Source of the DNA: Jiangella muralis
GTDB lineage: Bacteria; Actinomycetota; Actinomycetes; Jiangellales; Jiangellaceae
NCBI RefSeq assembly: GCF_001270745.1
Contig: NZ_KQ434757.1
Location: 203,392-267,391, forward strand
Length of the DNA: 64,000 bases
Direction: 5' to 3'
The notes beneath the pieces were generated by a model. The model was not told where the DNA came from and made no database searches. It saw only the letters and a program-made list of their open reading frames with translations. The translations under genes were made by a program, and so were the position numbers. Below are positions 16,372 through 45,718 of this stretch, piece by piece; the first letter of the stretch is position 1, and the number at the start of each line of letters is the position of its first letter.

Positions 16372-16450
16372 CGACCCATCATCGCCGATTTGCCAGCCGG
16401 GGCGGCTTCTGGCCAAGCTCGGTGCCGAGCCTGACGAAAGGACCATCCGC

Positions 16451-20366: not shown

Positions 20367-20392
20367 TCGTTTACGGGTGGGTCCGGCGGCGC

Positions 20393-20426
20393 TTGTGGTC
20401 CCGGACATTACTCGGTTATCCTACAA
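20393..20426 (+). promoter_or_regulatory. promoter and possible FadR-type operator for the GntR gene
   Basis: TTGTGG (20393-20398), an 18-base spacer and TATCCT (20417-20422) make a plausible sigma-70-type promoter 30 bases before the GTG. TTATCCTACAA at 20416-20426 overlaps the -10. It is a near-palindrome (TTRT-N3-AYAA) of the kind bound by FadR-subfamily GntR proteins, so autoregulation is likely. Confidence 0.5.
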
Positions 20427-20453
20427 ATCAACGCCATGCCGGGAGGAGTTCAC

Positions 20454-21179
20454 GTGGCCCAGGGGGATCAGCTCACGCGACTGACGGCGCTGCCGCGGCC
20501 GCCGAGCCTGCACGAGTCCGTGCAGGCAGCGCTGCGCGACTACATCCTCACCAACGGACTGCGCGCCGGCGACGGCCTACCGGCCGAGGGCGCGCTGGCC
20601 CAGCAGCTCGGCGTCAGCCGCAACTCCGTCCGCGAGGCGGTCAAGGGACTGGTGTCCCTCGGCATCCTCGAGACCCGGCGCGGCAGCGGCGTGTTCGTCA
20701 AGGACTTCTCGCTGTCCCTGCTCATCGACAACCTCCCGTTCAACCTGCTGTTCGACTTCAGCGAGCTGGCCGACCTGCTCGAAGTGCGCCGCGCCGTCGA
20801 GAACGACCTCATCGAGCGGGCCGTGCGCGACATGACCGACCGCACCCGGTCCGAGCTCGGGCAGATCCTCAGCGAGATGAAGGAGAAGGCCGACCGTGGC
20901 GCGGACGTGCTCGACGAGGACCGCCGGTTCCACCGCACCCTCTTCGCCGACGCCGGCAACGCCGTCGCGCTGAAGCTGCTCGACGCGTTCTGGCTGACGA
21001 TGAGCCGCGCGGTGTCGCAGCGCGCCGAGATCGCCGACGACCGGCCGTCCGACACCTACCGCCAGCACGACGCCATCTACCGGGCCGTGCTCGACGGCGA
21101 CGTCGCGGCCGTCCACGACGCCCTGTCCGACCACTACTCGCCGATCCTGACCCGGCTCGACCGCACCAAGCCGCTCTGA
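20454..21179 (+). CDS. FadR-subfamily GntR transcriptional regulator
   Basis: The 241-residue regulator has an N-terminal GntR winged helix (LHESVQAALRDYILTNGLRA, LPAEGALAQQLGVSRNSVRE, LETRRGSGVFV). The C-terminal all-helical FCD domain contains LLEVRRAVENDLIERAVRDM, RRFHRTLFADAGN and a terminal Y-x-x-H-x-x-I helix (YRQHDAIYRAVLDGD), with metal-binding Asp/His positions. GTG 20454 is preceded by GGAGGAG at five bases; an ATG at 20436 lacks this. It is separated from ptsH by a terminator. The target is unknown, and an adjacent metabolic gene is absent. Confidence 0.88.
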   Translation: MAQGDQLTRLTALPRPPSLHESVQAALRDYILTNGLRAGDGLPAEGALAQQLGVSRNSVREAVKGLVSLGILETRRGSGVFVKDFSLSLLIDNLPFNLLFDFSELADLLEVRRAVENDLIERAVRDMTDRTRSELGQILSEMKEKADRGADVLDEDRRFHRTLFADAGNAVALKLLDAFWLTMSRAVSQRAEIADDRPSDTYRQHDAIYRAVLDGDVAAVHDALSDHYSPILTRLDRTKPL

Positions 21180-37014: not shown

Positions 37015-37578
37015 ATGCCTCCTGTGCACGTCCGCCCTTACGACGACGCCGACGCGCCGAACTGGCTTCGCTGCCGGCTCCTGAGCTTCTTCACCACCCA
37101 GTACTACGACGATGTCGTCACGCGGCGGCCCCGCTACGACGAACCATCGATCCAGCTCGTGGCGGCCGACTGCGCCGAGATCGTCGGAATCCTCGACGTG
37201 AGCATCGGGGCCGGCGCCGCCACGATCGAGACCGTGGCCGTTCTGCCCGAGCACTCGCGTGCGGGCATCGCCACCCGGCTGCTGCACGCCGCGCTTCCCG
37301 AGCTCGAACAACGGGAACTCCCGACCCTGGATGCATGGACGCGGGAGGACCCGGCGGCCAACGCGTGGTACCGGCGCAACGGGTTCCGCGAGGAGCACCG
37401 CTACCTGCACGTCTACCAGGACTGGGACGAGCGCGACGCCGAGTCCACCGCGCACGGCGACCTCGGCACGCCCGTCCGGGTGTTCGCCCATGCCCCGATC
37501 GAACGGGAAGCGCAGCTGCGCGCCCGGTTCCGCCGGGTCCATGTGTGCCGGCAGTACGTGCTGAGCCTCGCACGCTAG
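37015..37578 (+). CDS. GNAT acetyltransferase
   Basis: The 187-residue protein has VHVRPYDDADAPNWLRCRLL, IETVAVLPEHSRAGIATRLL (CoA loop HSRAGIA), LDAWTREDPAANAWYRRNGF and a short C-terminal extension. The N-terminal FFTTQYYDDVV and the YLHVY strand are those of a small-molecule acetyltransferase. It lies 28 bases after the MocR gene in the same direction and could be controlled with it. It converges on the alpha-galactosidase remnant with overlapping ends (4 bases). Confidence 0.85.
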   Translation: MPPVHVRPYDDADAPNWLRCRLLSFFTTQYYDDVVTRRPRYDEPSIQLVAADCAEIVGILDVSIGAGAATIETVAVLPEHSRAGIATRLLHAALPELEQRELPTLDAWTREDPAANAWYRRNGFREEHRYLHVYQDWDERDAESTAHGDLGTPVRVFAHAPIEREAQLRARFRRVHVCRQYVLSLAR

Positions 37579-39697
37579 ACCGCGGTCAGCTCCAGCGTGA
37601 GCACCTGGGCCGGGTTCAGCGTCGGAGCCTGCAGGCCGACCGTCGCGAGCACCCGGCCGGGGAGCTCCACCGCGCCCGCCTCCAGCCAGGCCGCCGGCCG
37701 GGCCCACCGCGGCAACGCGCTGCTCAACCCCGGCACCGGAACGACCCGGTAGGTGGTGGACGGGTCGAGGCCGGGCAGGCGCAGGCGGGGCGGGATGTCG
37801 GCGGTCATCGTCTCCAGGGCGACGTAGCTGAACACCGCCTGACCCGGGCCCACCACGCCATGGAGGACGTGCGCGTCGTCGGTGTCGGCGCGGACGACGC
37901 GGCCGGTGTGCAGGAGCGGACGCAGCCGCTTGTACGTCGCCGCCCACTCGCGCAGCACGGCGAGCTCGGACGGCGAGCACTCGGTGATGTCCCACTCGAT
38001 GCCGGCGTGCCCGAACAACGCCGTGGCGCAGCGCAGCTCCAGCGAGGTCACCCGCCCCGACACGTGCGTGTGCGACGGGCCGACATGCGCGCCGATCAGC
38101 TCCGGCGGCAGCAGCAGCGACGTCCACCGCTGGATCGCCTGGCGGTCCAGCGGGTCGTTGCTGTCCGACGCCCACACGCGGTCGGTGCGCTGGATGATGC
38201 CGAGGTCGACCCGGGCGCCGCCGGACGAGCACGACTCGATCTCCAGCGCCGGGTGCCGCGACCGCAGCTCGTCCAGCAGCCGGTACACGGCGGCGGTCTG
38301 CTCGTGCACGCCGGCGCGGCCCTCGTGGACGGCCTCCAGCAGGTCGCGGTTGTGGTCCCACTTGAGGTAGTCGATGCCGTACTCGCTCACCAGCGCGTCC
38401 AGCCGTTCCAGCAGGTAGGCGTAGGCCTTCGGGTTCGCGACGTCGACGGTGTGCTGGTTGCGCCATTCCCGTGGCACCCGCGAAGGGTCGTTGAGCAGCC
38501 AGTCGGGGTGCTCCTCGACCAGCCGCGACCGCGGGTTCGCCATCTCCGGCTCCACCCACAGCCCGAACTGCATGCCCAGCGACTTCACGTGGTCGACCAG
38601 CGGGTGCAGCCCGTCCGGCCACAGGTCGGGGTCGACGTACCAGTCGCCGAGGCCGCCGAGGTCGTTGCGGCGGCCGAGGAACCAGCCGTCGTCGACGACG
38701 AAGCGCTCGACCCCCACCGACGCCGCGACATCGGCCAGCCCGCGCATCCGATCGAGGTCGTGGTCGAAATAGACCGCCTCCCACGTGTTCAGCACCAGCG
38801 GCCGCGGCGTCGACGGGTGCGCCGGCCGGGACCGCAGCGACGCGTGCAGCCGCGAGGACAACCCGTCCAGCCCGGAGTCGGAGTAGACGAAGTACACGTC
38901 CGGCGTCGCGTACGACTCCCCCGGCGCCAGCACGACCTCGCCGGATGCCAGCAGCTCACCGGCGCCCAGCGTCGACCAGCCCTCGGCGACCCGCTCCGCG
39001 TCGTGCACCGTCCAGCCGCTCCAGCCGGCGTGCACGCCCCACACCTCGCCGGACCCGAAACCGAACCCGGCCGAGCCGGCCACCAGCAGCCCGGTGTGCG
39101 AGTGGCCGGTGCGCCCGCGCCGCGTCTCCAGCGACCGGATGCCGGGCCGGAACGCCTCGCGCTGCGGGATCTTCTCCAGCCCCCACCGGCCACTGAAGTG
39201 CAGCAGCTCGGCGGCGTGGTCGGGCACCGGCAGGACGGCGCGCAGCCCGCCCACCGTCCACGCACTGGAACCCTCGTTGGTGAGCATGTGCCGCACCCGC
39301 AGCACACCGGCATCGTCGAGGACGAGCGAGCTGACGACGGACACACCGGCGTCCGAATCGCGCGACGTCACCTCGACGCCGCCGCCGTCAGGCGCGACGG
39401 AGACCTCGACCGGCGCCAGCCGCAGGTGCGGGTAGGCACGGTCGCGCGCTCCCTCGACGCCGAGCCGCCCGGCCCACCGGCCCACCCGTCGGCCTGGGCC
39501 GGCAGCAGCGACGGCGCCGCCGGGTCGGCCGGCGCCCCACCTCTCCGGCCGGGGACCGCCACGGACCGCAGCGCAGCGCCGTCGACCCCGGGGCCGAGGT
39601 CGGCGCCCCAGTGCAGCACCCGCGGCAGCCACGGCGTGTCCAGGTCGAGCACCAGGCCGGCACCGGCCCGGGCCAGCACCACCAGCGACAGGTCCAT
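37575..39697 (-). pseudogene. alpha-galactosidase (GH36), frame broken by an 8-bp tandem duplication
   Basis: The reading begins at ATG 39697 (GGGAGA eight bases upstream) with MDLSLVVLARAGAGLVLDLD, and is in frame through LLPAQADGWAG. It then continues in a different frame as RLGVEGARDRAYPHLRLAPV to the end. The frames join exactly if one unit of a TGGGCCGG tandem pair (39469-39484) is removed, giving 704 residues, the usual GH36 length. The catalytic parts are intact: DDGWFLGRRNDLGGLGDW, YGIDYLKWDHNRD (nucleophile Asp), ESCSSGGARVDLG, and SDSNDPLDRQAIQ (acid/base). Removal of terminal alpha-galactose is the family activity. Without correction a translated N-terminus is lost. Confidence 0.88.
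39469..39484. repeat. 8-bp tandem duplication (TGGGCCGG)2
   Basis: On the minus strand, TGGGCCGG occurs twice in a row inside the alpha-galactosidase gene and shifts the frame by +8. A single copy restores DGWAGRLGVEG. Confidence 0.9.
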
Positions 39698-39740
39698 CGG
39701 GCGAATCTCCCTCACGCGGCGACACGTCCGGACCAGCCTG

Positions 39741-40667
39741 TCAGACCCCGCGCAGCGGTCCGGCGGCGGCCGCCTCGAGCTCCTTGACCAGCGCGTCGAC
39801 CGCGGCGAGCGCGTCGGCGCCCAGCCGCCCCCACGGCGCCCGGGCCGACCCCGCGTCCGGCCCGAACCGGTTGATCAGCTCCTTGACGACCGCGATCGAG
39901 CCCCACCGGTCGGCGACCGCGGCGATCTGCCGGAACGGACGGTGCAGCGCCAGCGCCGACTCGACCTCGCCGGCCAGGATCCGCGACCGCACCTCGCGGG
40001 CCACCGGCGCCAGCACGTTGTACAGGCTGCCGATGGCACCGGTCGCGCCGCAGGCCACAGCGGCCGGCAGCAGCTCGTCCTTGCCGAAGTAGACGCGGAC
40101 GCCGTCGGCGGCCTCGCGGGTGCGGATGAACTCCAGCAGGTCGCCGTCGGTGAACTTGACGGCGCGCAGGCTCGGCACCCGGGCGGCGGCCTGCTCGACC
40201 ACCGCCGACGGCGCCGCGCGCAGCCCCGTCATCGACGGGATGTGGTAGTAGCACAGCGGGACGTCCGGCGCGGCCGACGCGATCTCGGCCAGGTAGTCGA
40301 CGATCGCCGTGACCGAGGGCGGCTCGCCGTAGAACGGCGCCACCGCGGCGATCAGGTCGACGCCGGCGTCGGCCGCGTGCCGGGCCAGCCGCCGCGCGTC
40401 CACCAGGCTGAGGTCGCCCACGTGCGCCCCGAGCAGCAGGCGGTCGCCGCGGTGCTCGGCCCACGCGCCGATCAGCTCGGCCCGCTCGTCCACCGTCAGC
40501 GCCATCGACTCACCGGTGGTGCCGCCGACGAACGCGCCGTCGATGCCCAGCTCGACCAGGTGCGCTGCCTGGGCGGGCACGACCTCGGCGGCCAGGCTCT
40601 CGTCGGCCCGGAACGGGGTCGGCGTCGCCGCCCACAGCTCGAACGAGTCGGTGGTCTCTGTGCTCAT
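39741..40667 (-). CDS. N-acetylneuraminate lyase-like / DHDPS-family aldolase
   Basis: The 308-residue class I aldolase of the DapA superfamily has GIDGAFVGGTTGESMALTVD with the GTTGE motif. CYYHIPSMTGLRAAPSAVVE carries the catalytic Tyr, and LRAVKFTDGDLLEF carries the Schiff-base Lys. The YYHIPxxTG and KFxDxDL signatures match N-acetylneuraminate lyases better than DapA, so cleavage of a sialic-acid-like or other 2-keto-3-deoxy acid is likely. ATG 40667 has AGGAGAG six bases upstream; a longer frame to 40703 is rejected. It lies 20 bases after the permease gene, in the same operon. Confidence 0.85.
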   Translation of the reverse strand: MSTETTDSFELWAATPTPFRADESLAAEVVPAQAAHLVELGIDGAFVGGTTGESMALTVDERAELIGAWAEHRGDRLLLGAHVGDLSLVDARRLARHAADAGVDLIAAVAPFYGEPPSVTAIVDYLAEIASAAPDVPLCYYHIPSMTGLRAAPSAVVEQAAARVPSLRAVKFTDGDLLEFIRTREAADGVRVYFGKDELLPAAVACGATGAIGSLYNVLAPVAREVRSRILAGEVESALALHRPFRQIAAVADRWGSIAVVKELINRFGPDAGSARAPWGRLGADALAAVDALVKELEAAAAGPLRGV

Positions 40668-40686
40668 GCACTGCTCTCCTCTAGTA

Positions 40687-41520
40687 CTAGCTCTTGGTGG
40701 CACCGGCGGTGAGGCCGCCGACGATGTAGCGCTGCAGGAAGACGAAGACGACGATGATCGGCAGCGCGACCACGACGGAGACGGCCATCAGGTCGTTCCA
40801 GCGGGTCCCGAACGAGTTCGTCAGCCCGGCCAGCACGACGGTGATCGGCTGCATGCCCGCGTCCGACGCCAGCGCCAGCCCGAACACGAACTCGCCCCAG
40901 GCGCCGAGGAAGCTGATGACCGCGACGGTGATCACCCCCGGCACCGAGACCGGCAGCGCGACCCGCAGGAACGCCGTCCAGGTGTTGCAGCCGTCGATCT
41001 TGGCGGCCTCGATCACCTCGCCCGGCACCGACAGGAAGTACGGCCGCAGGATCGTGATGGCCAGCGGGATCGCCAGCGAGCAGTTCGCCAGGATCAGCCC
41101 CACGTACGAGTTCACCAGGTCGGCCCGGCTGAAGATCACGAACATCGGCAGCGCGAGGTTCACCGCCGGGATCATCTGCACGACCAGGAACAGCAGCATC
41201 AGCAGCGCGACGAACCGCACCCGCAGCCGGGCCAGCGCGTACGCCGCCGGCACCGCGACCGCCAGCGACACGACGGTCGTCCCGACGGCGATGACGGTGC
41301 TGTTCAGCAGCCCGCGGCCGATGCCGGCGTGGTTGACGACCGTCTCGGTGTACGACGTCAGGCTGATCGGCGACGGGAACAGGTCCGGCGGCGTGGAGAA
41401 GATGTCCGAGGACTGCTTCAGTGACGTCGCCAGCATCCAGTACACCGGCAGCAGGTAGACGACGGTGATGAGCACGCCGCCCACGCTCAGCCAGCCGCGC
41501 TTGCGCCGGGCCGCCGTCAC
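40687..41520 (-). CDS. carbohydrate ABC transporter permease (MalG-like)
   Basis: The 277-residue permease has six helices and the EAA loop EVIEAAKIDGCNTWTAFLRV, typical of CUT1 sugar importers. The N-terminal VTAARRKRGWLSVGGVLITV has the short charged head of MalG-type proteins. GTG 41520 overlaps the upstream stop (GTGA). The next gene is the aldolase. Confidence 0.9.
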   Translation of the reverse strand: MTAARRKRGWLSVGGVLITVVYLLPVYWMLATSLKQSSDIFSTPPDLFPSPISLTSYTETVVNHAGIGRGLLNSTVIAVGTTVVSLAVAVPAAYALARLRVRFVALLMLLFLVVQMIPAVNLALPMFVIFSRADLVNSYVGLILANCSLAIPLAITILRPYFLSVPGEVIEAAKIDGCNTWTAFLRVALPVSVPGVITVAVISFLGAWGEFVFGLALASDAGMQPITVVLAGLTNSFGTRWNDLMAVSVVVALPIIVVFVFLQRYIVGGLTAGATKS

Positions 41521-42455
41521 GACAGTTCCTCGCGGCGCAGCGAGCGGAAGTAGAAGACCGACAGGCCGAGCGGCACCACCAGCATCAGCGTCGTCGCGAC
41601 GGCGCCGGTGTCGAACCGGAAGAACTCGAACGCCTCGTTGTAGGCGTAGATCGGCAGGATCATCGTCGCCTCGCCCGGACCGCCGCGGGTCATCAGGAAC
41701 ACCGTGTCGAAGGTCTTGAAGGTGGAGATGAAGCAGAGCAGCAGCGCCGTCAGGTTGACCGGCTTCAGCAGCGGCAGCGTCACACTGGTGAACCGCCGCC
41801 ACGCGCCCGCGCCGTCGATCTTCGCGGCCTCGTACAACGTGTCCGGGATGCCCTGCAGGCCGGCCAGCAGCAGGATCATGATGAACGGCGTGAACGACCA
41901 CGCCGTCGCGATGACCACGGCGAACAGCGCCGGCACCGGCCGGGCCAGCCAGAACACGTCGCCGTCGACCAGCCCGACCGCGCCGAGCAGCGTGTTGATC
42001 AGCCCGTAGCTGCCGTCGAGCATCCAGCGCCAGACGTTCGCGCTGACGACCGTCGGCAGGATCCAGGCGAGCAGCAGCAGCGACCGCATGAGGTTGCGGC
42101 CCGGGAAGCGCTGGTTGAAGTAGACCGCCAGCGCCATGCCGAGCGCGAACGCGACGGCCACGGCGAGCCCGGTGTAGAGCAGCGAGATCACCAGCGCGTG
42201 CCAGAAGGAGTCCCGGCCCAGCTGGTCGGCGTAGTTCTCCCAGCCGACCCATTCGGCCCCGCCCGTGACGATCTGGGCGACGCCGACGTCACGGAAGCTG
42301 AGGTCGATGTTGAAGATCAGCGGGTAGAGCACGGTCGCCGCGACGAAGAGGACCGCGGGGACGACGAACAGGTGGTCGCCCCAGCGCCGGGCCCGCCGAG
42401 GGGCCCGGGCCGGAGTGGTGCTCGCCGTTCCCGGCGGGGCGACGGTGGTGGTCAC
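41517..42455 (-). CDS. carbohydrate ABC transporter permease (MalF-like)
   Basis: The 312-residue protein has a basic Pro/Ala-rich head (RAPRRARRWGDHLFVVPAVL) and about six helices. The EAA loop is TLYEAAKIDGAGAWRRFTSV. It is a CUT1 family permease. GTG 42455 overlaps the binding-protein stop, making a tight operon. No ATPase gene is present in the operon; such importers in actinobacteria commonly use a shared MsiK ATPase. Confidence 0.9.
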   Translation of the reverse strand: MTTTVAPPGTASTTPARAPRRARRWGDHLFVVPAVLFVAATVLYPLIFNIDLSFRDVGVAQIVTGGAEWVGWENYADQLGRDSFWHALVISLLYTGLAVAVAFALGMALAVYFNQRFPGRNLMRSLLLLAWILPTVVSANVWRWMLDGSYGLINTLLGAVGLVDGDVFWLARPVPALFAVVIATAWSFTPFIMILLLAGLQGIPDTLYEAAKIDGAGAWRRFTSVTLPLLKPVNLTALLLCFISTFKTFDTVFLMTRGGPGEATMILPIYAYNEAFEFFRFDTGAVATTLMLVVPLGLSVFYFRSLRREELS

Positions 42456-43726
42456 TCGACGTTCGCCAGCGCCTCGTCGATCTGGCCCTGCGCGTCGGCC
42501 AGCGCGTCCTGGACACTCGCCCCGCCGCCCGCGGCGGCCTGCAGCGCGCCCTGGATGCGGGTCAGCACCTCCGACGACGCGGCCGCGAGGTCGCCCTCGG
42601 GCGCCCACGCCTGCTGCAGTTGCTCGGCGAAGATGGCCCGGACCGGGTCGTCGCCGGTGTCGACGTCGTCGCGCGCGGCCAGCTTGTTGCGCTCCGGCAG
42701 GTACTCGGCCAGCACGTCCGGCTGCTGCATCCACGCGATGACGTCCCACGCGGCGTCCGCGTTCTCCGTCGACGTGCTGATGGCGAGGTTCTCCTGGCTG
42801 AGGAACGTCGACGCCTGGACGTCGGACGGCAGCAGCGCGACGTTCCACCGCAGCTCCGGGTTCTCCTCGGCCAGGATGCTCAGGTAGGTCGCCGAGTTGA
42901 TCATCATCGCGGCCTGGCCGTTGGCGAACTGGTTCTTGACGTCCTCCTCGTTCCAGGTGAGGACACCGCCGGACACCGCGCCGCCGGCGATCATGTCCGC
43001 GAACTGGGTGAGCGCCGTGGCACCGGCCTCGGTGTCGATGTCGGCGGGGTCGCCGCCGGCCGCGAGCAGCCGGATCACCAGCGCCGTCGCCCCCTCGTCA
43101 CCCTCGATGCCGCTGAACGCGAGGCCGTAGCGCTCGCCGTCGGACAACCGGGTGGCGTGGTCCTGCATCTCCGCCCACGTGGTCGGGGGCTCGAGGCCGG
43201 CCTCGGCCAGCATGGTCTCGTTGTAGTAGACGGCGTACGCGTCGGCCACGTGCGGGACGGCATAGGTGGCGCCGTCGACCTGCGTGGTCTCCCAGCCGGT
43301 CTCGAAGTAGGCGTCGGCCTCGCCCCACTCGTCGACGCGGTCGCTGAGGTCCTGGATGACCCCGGCGTCGGCCAGCGCCTGCGTGCTGAAGCCGTTGATC
43401 AGCGCGATGTCCGGCAGGTCGCCGCCGGCCGCGGACTGCAGCAGCGTGCGGGTGAAGTCGCCGAACGGGATGTGCCGCGCCTCGATGGTGACGCCGTCGT
43501 GCTCGTCCTCGTACCGGTCGAGCAGGCCCTGCAACGCCGCCCCCGTCGGGGTGTCCGGCGTCCCGTAGTAGTGCCACAGCGAGAGCGTCGTCGTGCCGCC
43601 GTCGCCACCGCTGGCCTCGTCGTCGGAGCCGCCGCTGCCGCACGCGGCGAGCAGTCCCGCCGCGGCGAGCACCCCCACCGCCCGTGCCGTCCATGCGGCC
43701 GCCGACCGCCCGCCTGTCGTACCCAT
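42452..43726 (-). CDS. sugar ABC transporter substrate-binding lipoprotein
   Basis: The 424-residue lipoprotein has signal RAVGVLAAAGLLAAC with lipobox LAAC. The CUT1 binding-protein fold follows: LSLWHYYGTPDTPTGAALQG, DLPDIALINGFSTQALADAG, TYAVPHVADAYAVYYN, EAGLEPPTTWAEM and LSQENLAISTST. The start is ATG 43726, with GGAGGTGTC just before it. It is the first gene of the operon, preceded by a promoter with an embedded palindrome. The ligand is unknown; the aldolase and alpha-galactosidase genes nearby suggest an oligosaccharide. Confidence 0.9.
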   Translation of the reverse strand: MGTTGGRSAAAWTARAVGVLAAAGLLAACGSGGSDDEASGGDGGTTTLSLWHYYGTPDTPTGAALQGLLDRYEDEHDGVTIEARHIPFGDFTRTLLQSAAGGDLPDIALINGFSTQALADAGVIQDLSDRVDEWGEADAYFETGWETTQVDGATYAVPHVADAYAVYYNETMLAEAGLEPPTTWAEMQDHATRLSDGERYGLAFSGIEGDEGATALVIRLLAAGGDPADIDTEAGATALTQFADMIAGGAVSGGVLTWNEEDVKNQFANGQAAMMINSATYLSILAEENPELRWNVALLPSDVQASTFLSQENLAISTSTENADAAWDVIAWMQQPDVLAEYLPERNKLAARDDVDTGDDPVRAIFAEQLQQAWAPEGDLAAASSEVLTRIQGALQAAAGGGASVQDALADAQGQIDEALANVE

Positions 43727-43763
43727 GACACCTCCCTGTGTCCGCGATTCGCGCCTCGCGGAG

Positions 43764-43793
43764 ACAGTAGTCAGATATCCCATATCCCGTCAA
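43764..43793 (-). promoter_or_regulatory. promoter with palindromic operator between -35 and -10
   Basis: On the minus strand TTGACG (43793-43788), an 18-base spacer and TACTGT (43769-43764) form a good promoter 38 bases before the binding-protein ATG. GATAT-GGG-ATATC (43786-43774), a perfect 5-bp-armed palindrome, fills the spacer. A repressor there would block polymerase. Confidence 0.65.
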
Positions 43794-43833
43794 TGGGTGG
43801 ATCTGCGGCAGCAGATCCAGGGTGATGACGGAC

Positions 43834-44595
43834 TCAGACGGCCGGTCCGCCGGACACGTAGACCACCTGCCCGGTGACGAAGCCGGCATCGGGACTGACC
43901 AGGTACGACGCGGTGTGCGCGATGTCTTCGGGGTGGCCCACCCGGCCGACCGGGATGGACTCGGCGGCGATGCGCTGGTGCTCCTCGACGTCGCGGCCCA
44001 GCCGCCGTGCCGTGGCCGCCGTCATGTCGCTGACGATGAACCCGGGCGCGATCGCGTTGACGGTGACCCCGTTCCGGCCGAGCTCGAGCGCCAGCGACTT
44101 GGTGAAGCCGAGCAACCCGGCCTTCGCGCTGGAGTAGTGCGACCGGCCGTCGTCGCCGAGCGCGGAGACGCTGGAGACGTTGACGATGCGCCCCCAGCCG
44201 GCCGCGACCAGGTGCCCGACGACGGCGCGGGTGACCAGGAAGTGCCCGCGCAGGTTGATGCCGAGCAACTGGTCCCACTGCTCGACGGTCATCTCGGTGA
44301 TGGCGGCGGGCGGGCCGACGCCGGCGTTGTTCACCAGCACGGTGGGCGCTCCGAGTTCGGCGACGACCTGGTCGGTCGCGGCCGTCACGGCGGCCTCGTC
44401 GGCGATGTCGCAGCGCAGGCCGATGGCGCGCCCGCCGGCGGCGGTGATGGCGGCCGCGGTCTCCACGGCGCCGGATTCATTCAGGTCCAGAACGGCGACG
44501 GCATGTCCGTCGCGGGCCAGCCGTGCGGCGACGGCTGCGCCGATGCCATGGGCGCCGCCGGTCACGACGGCCACCGGGGTGTCGGGTCGAGTCAT
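43834..44595 (-). CDS. SDR-family oxidoreductase
   Basis: The 253-residue classical SDR has TGGAHGIG (12-19), VLVNNAGVG, GRIVNVSSVSALG (catalytic Ser), HYSSAKAGLLGFTKSLALEL (Tyr-x-x-x-Lys) and NAIAPGFIVSDM. It is FabG-like in form, with NAD(P) binding. Its substrate is unknown, and in this context a sugar or sugar acid is likely. ATG 44595 is preferred; an upstream frame to 44655 runs into the hairpin element. It may be transcribed with the MDR gene upstream, although a hairpin lies between them. Confidence 0.88.
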   Translation of the reverse strand: MTRPDTPVAVVTGGAHGIGAAVAARLARDGHAVAVLDLNESGAVETAAAITAAGGRAIGLRCDIADEAAVTAATDQVVAELGAPTVLVNNAGVGPPAAITEMTVEQWDQLLGINLRGHFLVTRAVVGHLVAAGWGRIVNVSSVSALGDDGRSHYSSAKAGLLGFTKSLALELGRNGVTVNAIAPGFIVSDMTAATARRLGRDVEEHQRIAAESIPVGRVGHPEDIAHTASYLVSPDAGFVTGQVVYVSGGPAV

Positions 44596-44617
44596 GGGCA
44601 GCAGCATCGCGCCAGCT

Positions 44618-44675
44618 CCCATGATCATCAACCTTTCGCGCTGCCCTGACGACACAAAAGGTTGATGATCATGGG
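44618..44675. terminator. long hairpin, CATGATCATC family copy 1
   Basis: Perfect 19-bp arms, 44618-44636 and 44657-44675 (starting CCCATGATCATCAAC), enclose a 20-base loop. The right arm contains the stop codon of the MDR dehydrogenase (TGA at 44671-44669). It lies between that gene and the SDR gene on the same strand. A/T-rich arm ends suggest terminator function. Confidence 0.7.
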
Positions 44676-45718
44676 GCGGCGGGGAACCGGAGCACCACCT
44701 GAAGCGCCTCGGCCGGACGGTGGTCGAGCAGCTCGAACGCGCCGGCCACCTCCGTCACCGGCAGGACGTGCGACAGCAGCGGGGCGACGTCCAGGCGGCC
44801 GGACGCGACCAGGTCCATGACCACCTGCAGCAGCCGGTCGTGGTTCCACCGGTCGCCGAGGGCCCGCGGCGTGCCGCCGATCTGGCTGGCCACGATCTCG
44901 ACCCGGTTGTGGTGGAACTCCTCCCCCAGTAGCAGCCCACCCGCCTCACCCTGATAGAAGCCGGCCGCCACGACCCGTCCGCCAGGACGCACCGACCGGA
45001 TCGCCTCGTGCAACGCGCGGTAGTTGCCACTCAGCTCGATCGCCGTGTCGGCGCCGACCCCACCGGTGACCGACCGCACCGCGACCGCCGCACCGCCGGC
45101 CACGTCCGCCGGGACCGCCCGCACCGCGCCGAACCGCGACGCCAGCGCGACCCGGTCCGGCAACCCGTCGACCGCCACCACGGAGCCGCCGTTGAGCTCC
45201 GCGAGCCGGGTGGCCAGCAGCCCGATGACGCCCTGGCCGAAGATCGCCACGTGCTCGCCGAGGTGCACGTCGGCGGCGAGCACGGCGTTCAGCGCGATGG
45301 CGCCGACCCGTGCGAACACGCCGTGCACCGGGTCGACGCCGGCCGGGAGCAGCCGTCGCGCGGCGATGACGGCCGGCACGACCGTCTCGGCGCGGTGGCC
45401 CCAGATGCCGTAGACGACGTCGCCGACCCGCGGCGTCGCGACGTCCGGCGCGACCTCGGTGACCTGCCCGACCTCCTGGTAGCCCCAGCCGGAGACGGGG
45501 TAGGTGAACGCCGGCGCGCCGTCGGTGAACAGCCGCGCCGCCGCGTCCCACGTCTTCGTCAGGTACGGGTTGGAGCCGCGGTAGGCGGTCAGCTCGGTGC
45601 CGGCGGAGATGCCGGAGTACCAGGTGGCGATGCGAACCTGCCCCGCACCCAGCGGCGATGCCGCCTCCTCGGCCACGCCGACCTGACCGGGTCCGGTGAA
45701 CTGCACGACCAGCGGCAT
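44669..45718 (-). CDS. MDR (zinc-type alcohol dehydrogenase-like) oxidoreductase
   Basis: The 349-residue medium-chain dehydrogenase has an N-terminal GroES-like domain (SGISAGTELTAYRGSNPYLT, VSGWGYQEVGQVTEVAP) and a Rossmann domain with GQGVIGLLATRLAELNGG and DTAIELSGNYRALHEAI. The usual zinc-site Cys/His and GHE motifs are missing. It belongs to a zinc-independent or altered branch often annotated as bacteriochlorophyllide/sugar dehydrogenase-like (inference). It faces the second binding-protein gene across 128 bases with a candidate operator. Confidence 0.85.
   Translation of the reverse strand: MPLVVQFTGPGQVGVAEEAASPLGAGQVRIATWYSGISAGTELTAYRGSNPYLTKTWDAAARLFTDGAPAFTYPVSGWGYQEVGQVTEVAPDVATPRVGDVVYGIWGHRAETVVPAVIAARRLLPAGVDPVHGVFARVGAIALNAVLAADVHLGEHVAIFGQGVIGLLATRLAELNGGSVVAVDGLPDRVALASRFGAVRAVPADVAGGAAVAVRSVTGGVGADTAIELSGNYRALHEAIRSVRPGGRVVAAGFYQGEAGGLLLGEEFHHNRVEIVASQIGGTPRALGDRWNHDRLLQVVMDLVASGRLDVAPLLSHVLPVTEVAGAFELLDHRPAEALQVVLRFPAAP

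Follow-up and report, generated by a model that had tools for sequence, protein, structure and literature searches.

The minus strand of a 64,000-nucleotide stretch of Jiangella muralis DNA (the window, in which all positions below are counted unless the contig is named) carries a GH36 alpha-galactosidase gene whose beginning and catalytic part lie in different reading frames. We asked what parts the frames, whether the break is a true mutation, and whether the gene could still yield an enzyme or be switched back on. The initial annotation had proposed that an 8-bp tandem duplication either inactivates the gene or makes it phase-variable.

Reading frames of the GH36 gene

The ORF that holds the catalytic domain runs for 716 amino acids from GTG 39725 (37575-39725, minus strand) and, judged from the ORF list and from GC content by codon position, joins the catalytic frame to an out-of-frame N-terminus. 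It matched the Melibiase family (Pfam PF02065) with an E value of 1.9e-114 and 382.7 bits against a cut-off of 27, over profile positions 1-347 of 347. The KWDxNR and SDxxD motifs are presumably the sites of the nucleophile and the acid/base Asp. The catalytic frame contains YLKWDHNR and WASDSND, which align with YVKWDMNR and WTSDNTD of AgaB (4fnq), confirming that the catalytic motifs are intact as had been claimed; the roles assumed for them accord with the GH36 catalytic Asp dyad named in excerpts of PMC7688924. The GH36 N-terminal domain (PF16875) was matched in the window ORF over profile positions 97-251 only, and in the ortholog L084 over positions 3-252, so that the window gene does not hold a complete N-terminal domain in one frame.

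The N-terminal reading frame opens at ATG 39697 and runs for 71 codons to the duplication (39485-39697, minus strand), as determined from translation, codon-position GC and ortholog alignment. A Shine-Dalgarno-like GAGGGAG at 39707-39713 (minus strand), 9 nt before this ATG, is a candidate ribosome-binding site. The rest of the gene (37575-39464, minus strand), recognized by Pfam, by its congeners and by the AgaB motifs, comprises the remainder of the N-terminal domain, the Melibiase catalytic domain, the C-terminal part and the stop. Past the duplication the shifted N-terminal frame meets a premature TGA at 39368-39370 on the minus strand (ORF list and translation), and the product from ATG 39697 is, by arithmetic, 109 residues long. 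A start-codon scan found a GTG in the catalytic frame that overlaps this TGA (GTGA; 39369-39371, minus strand) and is a possible re-initiation site. The catalytic frame is open past the break, upstream to GTG 39725, and a return to it from the shifted frame would take a -1 shift.

Upstream of the break, GC content at the three codon positions was 0.89, 0.59 and 0.94 in the N-terminal frame (0.86, 0.60 and 0.95 for the N-part in the contig comparison below) and 0.93, 0.86 and 0.60 when read as the 716-aa ORF; downstream of the break it was 0.75, 0.50 and 0.96 in the catalytic frame. Because this pattern changes frame at the duplication, the coding frame changes there, in agreement with the initial annotation, which had the N-terminal frame (from 39697) and the catalytic frame part at this site. 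The first ~80 codons of the 716-aa ORF have a GC pattern that is not coding-like, and the upstream part of this ORF is an accident of composition. Removal of one unit had been said to restore 704 residues, and our count is the same: positions 39697 and 37575 span 2123 bases, which after subtraction of 8 make 705 codons including the stop.

In the model of AgaSK from R. gnavus described in excerpts of PMC7688924, N- and C-terminal regions of adjacent subunits also take part in the binding pocket, to which the neighbouring subunit contributes Asp52, Phe55 and Arg66. Our alignment to solved structures stopped short of the N-terminal part of the window protein. Loss of the first ~100 profile positions of the GH36 N-terminal domain should remove elements of both the fold and the pocket, so that an enzyme made from the split gene would probably be inactive.

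The duplication and its absence from relatives

The duplication itself (39469-39484, minus strand) was borne out by direct reading, pattern search and a period scan. It consists of two head-to-tail units of TGGGCCGG, at 39469-39476 and 39477-39484, within a period-8 tract of 18 bp in all (39469-39486). A perfect 8-bp tandem pair is by itself not above chance in the DNA of the window, where two exact period-8 tandems of 16 bp or more were seen; 50 first-order Markov sequences had 3.18 on average (range 0-8). The evidence for a lesion is therefore the comparison with relatives.

In a DNA alignment, the 8 bp were absent from all 11 congeneric Jiangella orthologs. These were the best matches in each congener in a genus search (77-93% identity to the catalytic-part protein); the nearest genome, 93% identical in the GH36 protein, is not of the same species, and one ortholog (L089) starts within the gene at a contig end yet covers the duplication site. 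The frame was also examined in a wider set by using the N-part and the C-part of an ortholog as separate queries, with the window copy as positive control. The related loci tested numbered 91, from the 11 congeners together with the best 80 of 588 confirmed relatives (at least two genomes belong to both sets), and in every one the two parts lay in a single frame. Of all 92 loci only the window copy was split, and no relative had the shifted frame. These results support the earlier description of a clean lesion that struck an otherwise conserved gene in a single event. The lesion is derived and absent from the orthologs, as in a pseudogene made by a recent frameshift.

The flanks of the duplicated tract suggest how it may have formed. 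GG stands at both ends, a 2-bp microhomology that would be compatible with slippage. Only the window has G immediately ahead of the duplication (C in 10 of the 11 orthologs, A in one), a change of GGC to GGG that is synonymous for glycine. With this G the GG beside the unit becomes longer, and the change may have arisen before or together with the duplication. An inverted copy of the TGGGCCGG unit, found by pattern search on the plus strand at 39495-39502, 10 nt upstream of the duplication in the sense of the gene, could pair with either unit as a hairpin. The predicted fold was no better than that of shuffled sequences (z = -0.84; 39 of 200 shuffles folded equally well or better), and we rejected hairpin-driven mutation as a special mechanism in spite of the inverted copy. 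No RNA element of Rfam was matched in 39300-39800.

The catalytic frame contains neither a stop nor a second frameshift. Omega per branch, calculated from Nei-Gojobori distances, was 0.219 (bootstrap 0.143-0.320) on the window branch, compared to 0.161 (0.066-0.324) and 0.176 (0.100-0.261) on the sister branches L084 and L085; the window value is the highest of the three and the intervals overlap widely. Purifying selection still acts on the catalytic part, with no clear relaxation. Since constraint is not clearly relaxed and no second lesion has accrued, either the duplication is young on this branch or it is not real.

The contig and the gene neighbourhood

To see whether the lesion is an isolated one, we compared contig C8 (324,980 bases) with 400 kb from each of two relatives, G001 and G010, flagging those genes of a relative, picked mechanically and not from annotation, whose match on C8 falls in two frames; orthologs below 75% identity or 40% coverage were left out of this screen. 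Nine of 215 C8 orthologs were flagged against G001 and eight of 225 against G010. A search in the opposite direction, with C8 genes as queries on the two relatives, flagged 9 rows among 218 tested and 9 among 219, indicating a detector background of ~4%; here the GH36 ORF was flagged against G010 and not against G001. A screen confined to the window flagged 5 of 50 in each comparison. When the flagged proteins were rerun on the other relative, nine distinct genes proved to be split in this genome alone. A 10-N scaffold gap interrupts one of these genes, which leaves eight. In seven of them the N-terminal piece that is split off has 19-98 predicted residues and third-position GC values of 0.46-0.73, such as over-called starts would show. 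The GH36 N-part, with a third-position GC of 0.95, is the only coding-like detached N-part found along the 325-kb contig.

The scaffold gap is a run of 10 N at C8:203382-203391, directly before position 1 of the window, and it interrupts a gene that lies in one frame in the two relatives. At 20382-20470 of the window, two single-base differences from both relatives shift the first 19 predicted residues of a predicted gene; the codon GC of this segment is not coding-like, which makes GTG 20454, after GGAG, the likelier start. At 16389-16446, insertions of 8, 18, 2 and 1 bp relative to both relatives lie at the overlapping starts of two divergent predicted genes. A list of C8 insertions of at least 4 bp relative to both relatives, taken from alignments of at least 500 bp and 85% identity, had 21 entries, one of them the N run. 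Two were exact tandem duplications, that of TGGGCCGG and a 6-bp one; the other indels may be gains in C8 or losses in both relatives.

The GH36 gene is preceded, in the same direction, by a gene for a DapA-family (DHDPS) aldolase/lyase at 39741-40703 on the minus strand (Pfam PF00701, profile positions 6-288 of 289). Further upstream on the minus strand, at 40687-45718, Pfam recognized two ABC permeases, a sugar-type solute-binding protein, a short-chain dehydrogenase and a zinc dehydrogenase. This segment aligns with both relatives over most of its length. In the order of transcription, the genes encode the zinc dehydrogenase, the short-chain dehydrogenase, the solute-binding protein, the two permeases, the DapA-family protein and the GH36 enzyme, a series that may form one operon. 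One of the flagged rows touches the DapA-family gene; its 98 detached residues are read in another frame over the neighbouring permease gene and have a non-coding GC pattern (0.97/0.63/0.46). The best NCBIfam match of the solute-binding protein was a galacto-oligosaccharide binder, at 52 bits against a cut-off of 700, and any part of this system in the use of alpha-galactosides is a guess.

The rest of the genome was searched as well. No second long copy of the stretch was found among the 40 of 1097 candidates that were scored, the seven other matches to the 357-base query being weak and 25-75 bases long. A profile search likewise gave no other full-length Melibiase match in the genome, and no match to Melibiase_2 (PF16499). 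One partial Melibiase match on another contig exceeded the cut-off (38.6 bits), in a 440-aa ORF that fits GH31 slightly better, and there was one GH4-family match; these two proteins might supply a related activity. The catalytic-part query had two matches in this genome, compared to three to eight in ten congeners and one in G007, and GH36-like paralogs of the sister species seem to be missing here.

Origin and consequences of the lesion

We consider it likely that the duplication is recent and a true mutation, which shifts the frame of the sole full-length Melibiase-family gene and probably inactivates it. An 8-bp tandem duplication would have arisen, presumably by slippage, in this Jiangella lineage inside a GH36 alpha-galactosidase gene that sits at the end of a same-strand series of sugar-transport genes. 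Translation from ATG 39697 would then shift after ~71 codons and stop at the TGA at 39368-39370, yielding the 109-residue fragment and leaving the catalytic part out of frame. We infer here that the base calls are correct, that slippage was the mechanism and that activity is lost.

The initial annotation had allowed for a recent mutation or an assembly error, and these are indeed the two readings that carry most weight. The main rival to mutation is that the true genome has one unit and an intact gene, the duplication being an artefact of sequencing or assembly, which we judge to be unlikely. The assembly is a draft in 76 contigs, a 10-N scaffold gap directly precedes the window, and the duplication lies in GC-rich sequence close to an inverted copy of its unit. 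Sequence-specific Illumina errors have been reported at inverted repeats and GGC (Nakamura et al., as cited in excerpts of PMC4787001) and would be relevant here if the platform was Illumina. The purifying selection seen without clear relaxation is also expected of an intact gene that was misassembled, and the window-only base beside the duplication could be a local sequence error as well as part of a complex mutation. Against an artefact, the contig yielded no further frame break that is both coding-like and confined to this genome, sequencing errors do not usually take the form of an exact 8-bp expansion, and the hairpin at the site is no more stable than shuffled sequence. Illumina indel errors are moreover ~1000 times rarer than substitutions according to excerpts of PMC4787001.

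Two further readings assume that the duplication is real but that the enzyme is not simply lost, and we hold both to be highly improbable. Enzyme might still be made through -1 recoding, re-initiation at GTG 39371 or translation of the 716-aa variant from GTG 39725. The GTGA overlap of TGA and GTG is in the right frame for re-initiation, the catalytic frame is open from 39725, and purifying selection persists in the catalytic part. A re-initiated product would, however, be without about the first 110 residues, and GTG 39725 has no clear Shine-Dalgarno-like sequence ahead of it and is followed by 80 codons with a non-coding GC pattern. A programmed -1 frameshift was rejected, as the overlap of the frames contains no canonical X XXY YYZ heptamer in phase; it also lacks any homopolymer of 5 or more, as does the whole of 39368-39725. 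The other reading is that of a phase-variable ON/OFF locus, at which the duplication often arises and collapses and both cell states are kept in the population. Catabolic enzymes are not typical contingency genes. There are only two 8-bp copies and no multi-copy tract, and the extra unit was found in none of the 11 congeners, among which copy number at the site does not vary. Spontaneous sequence duplications do switch pneumococcal capsule genes (Waite et al. 2001 and 2003, as cited in excerpts of PMC4022640), and a work cited there has high-frequency phase variation of pneumococcus by such duplications in its title; the reversion expected for insertions of up to 9 bp is at most ~1e-5 in the same excerpts, which argues against frequent switching. 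Of the phase switch suggested in the initial annotation, what stands is that a two-copy duplication may in principle collapse precisely and revert; switching itself found no positive support and, with no extra unit in 11 congeners, we do not accept it. Equally slight, in our estimate, is the chance of a reversible two-state allele that the living population keeps because loss of the alpha-galactosidase is at times favoured, with the open alternative frame and the GTGA allowing some enzyme to be made meanwhile.

Returning to a recent inactivating duplication, the mutation looks like an ordinary one, lineage-specific and of an already known kind, and it raises no new biological question. A genuine duplication would be expected to leave the strain without the product of its sole full-length Melibiase-family gene, with the reservation that the partial Melibiase/GH31-type protein and the GH4-family protein are encoded as well. 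Among the papers that searches on Jiangella alpha-galactosidases and pseudogenes listed, titles and opening lines of abstracts do not mention the lesion. The case is mainly a caution on hidden frameshifts in high-GC DNA. In DNA of ~73% GC an open neighbouring frame can keep a frameshift hidden: the 716-codon ORF can conceal the lesion from a gene caller, frameshift screens based on ORF length would miss it, and the gene may stand recorded as an intact 716-aa alpha-galactosidase despite ~80 initial codons that are out of frame.

In domain order and catalytic motifs the gene resembles known GH36 alpha-galactosidases (AgaA/AgaB, 4fnp-4fnu; RgAgaSK, 2yfn; 2xn0), from which it differs in that its frame is broken in the N-terminal domain. 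The likeness to the pneumococcal capsule duplications is that a tandem duplication within coding sequence abolishes function, here presumably, and may revert; in contrast to those genes, this one encodes a metabolic enzyme in an actinomycete, and there is no sign that it switches, exists in more than one state or has a selected phenotype. Bacterial pseudogenes with one recent lesion have a single frameshift, no further decay and intact orthologs in sister species. The only difference found between these and the window gene is the open alternative frame that conceals the lesion.
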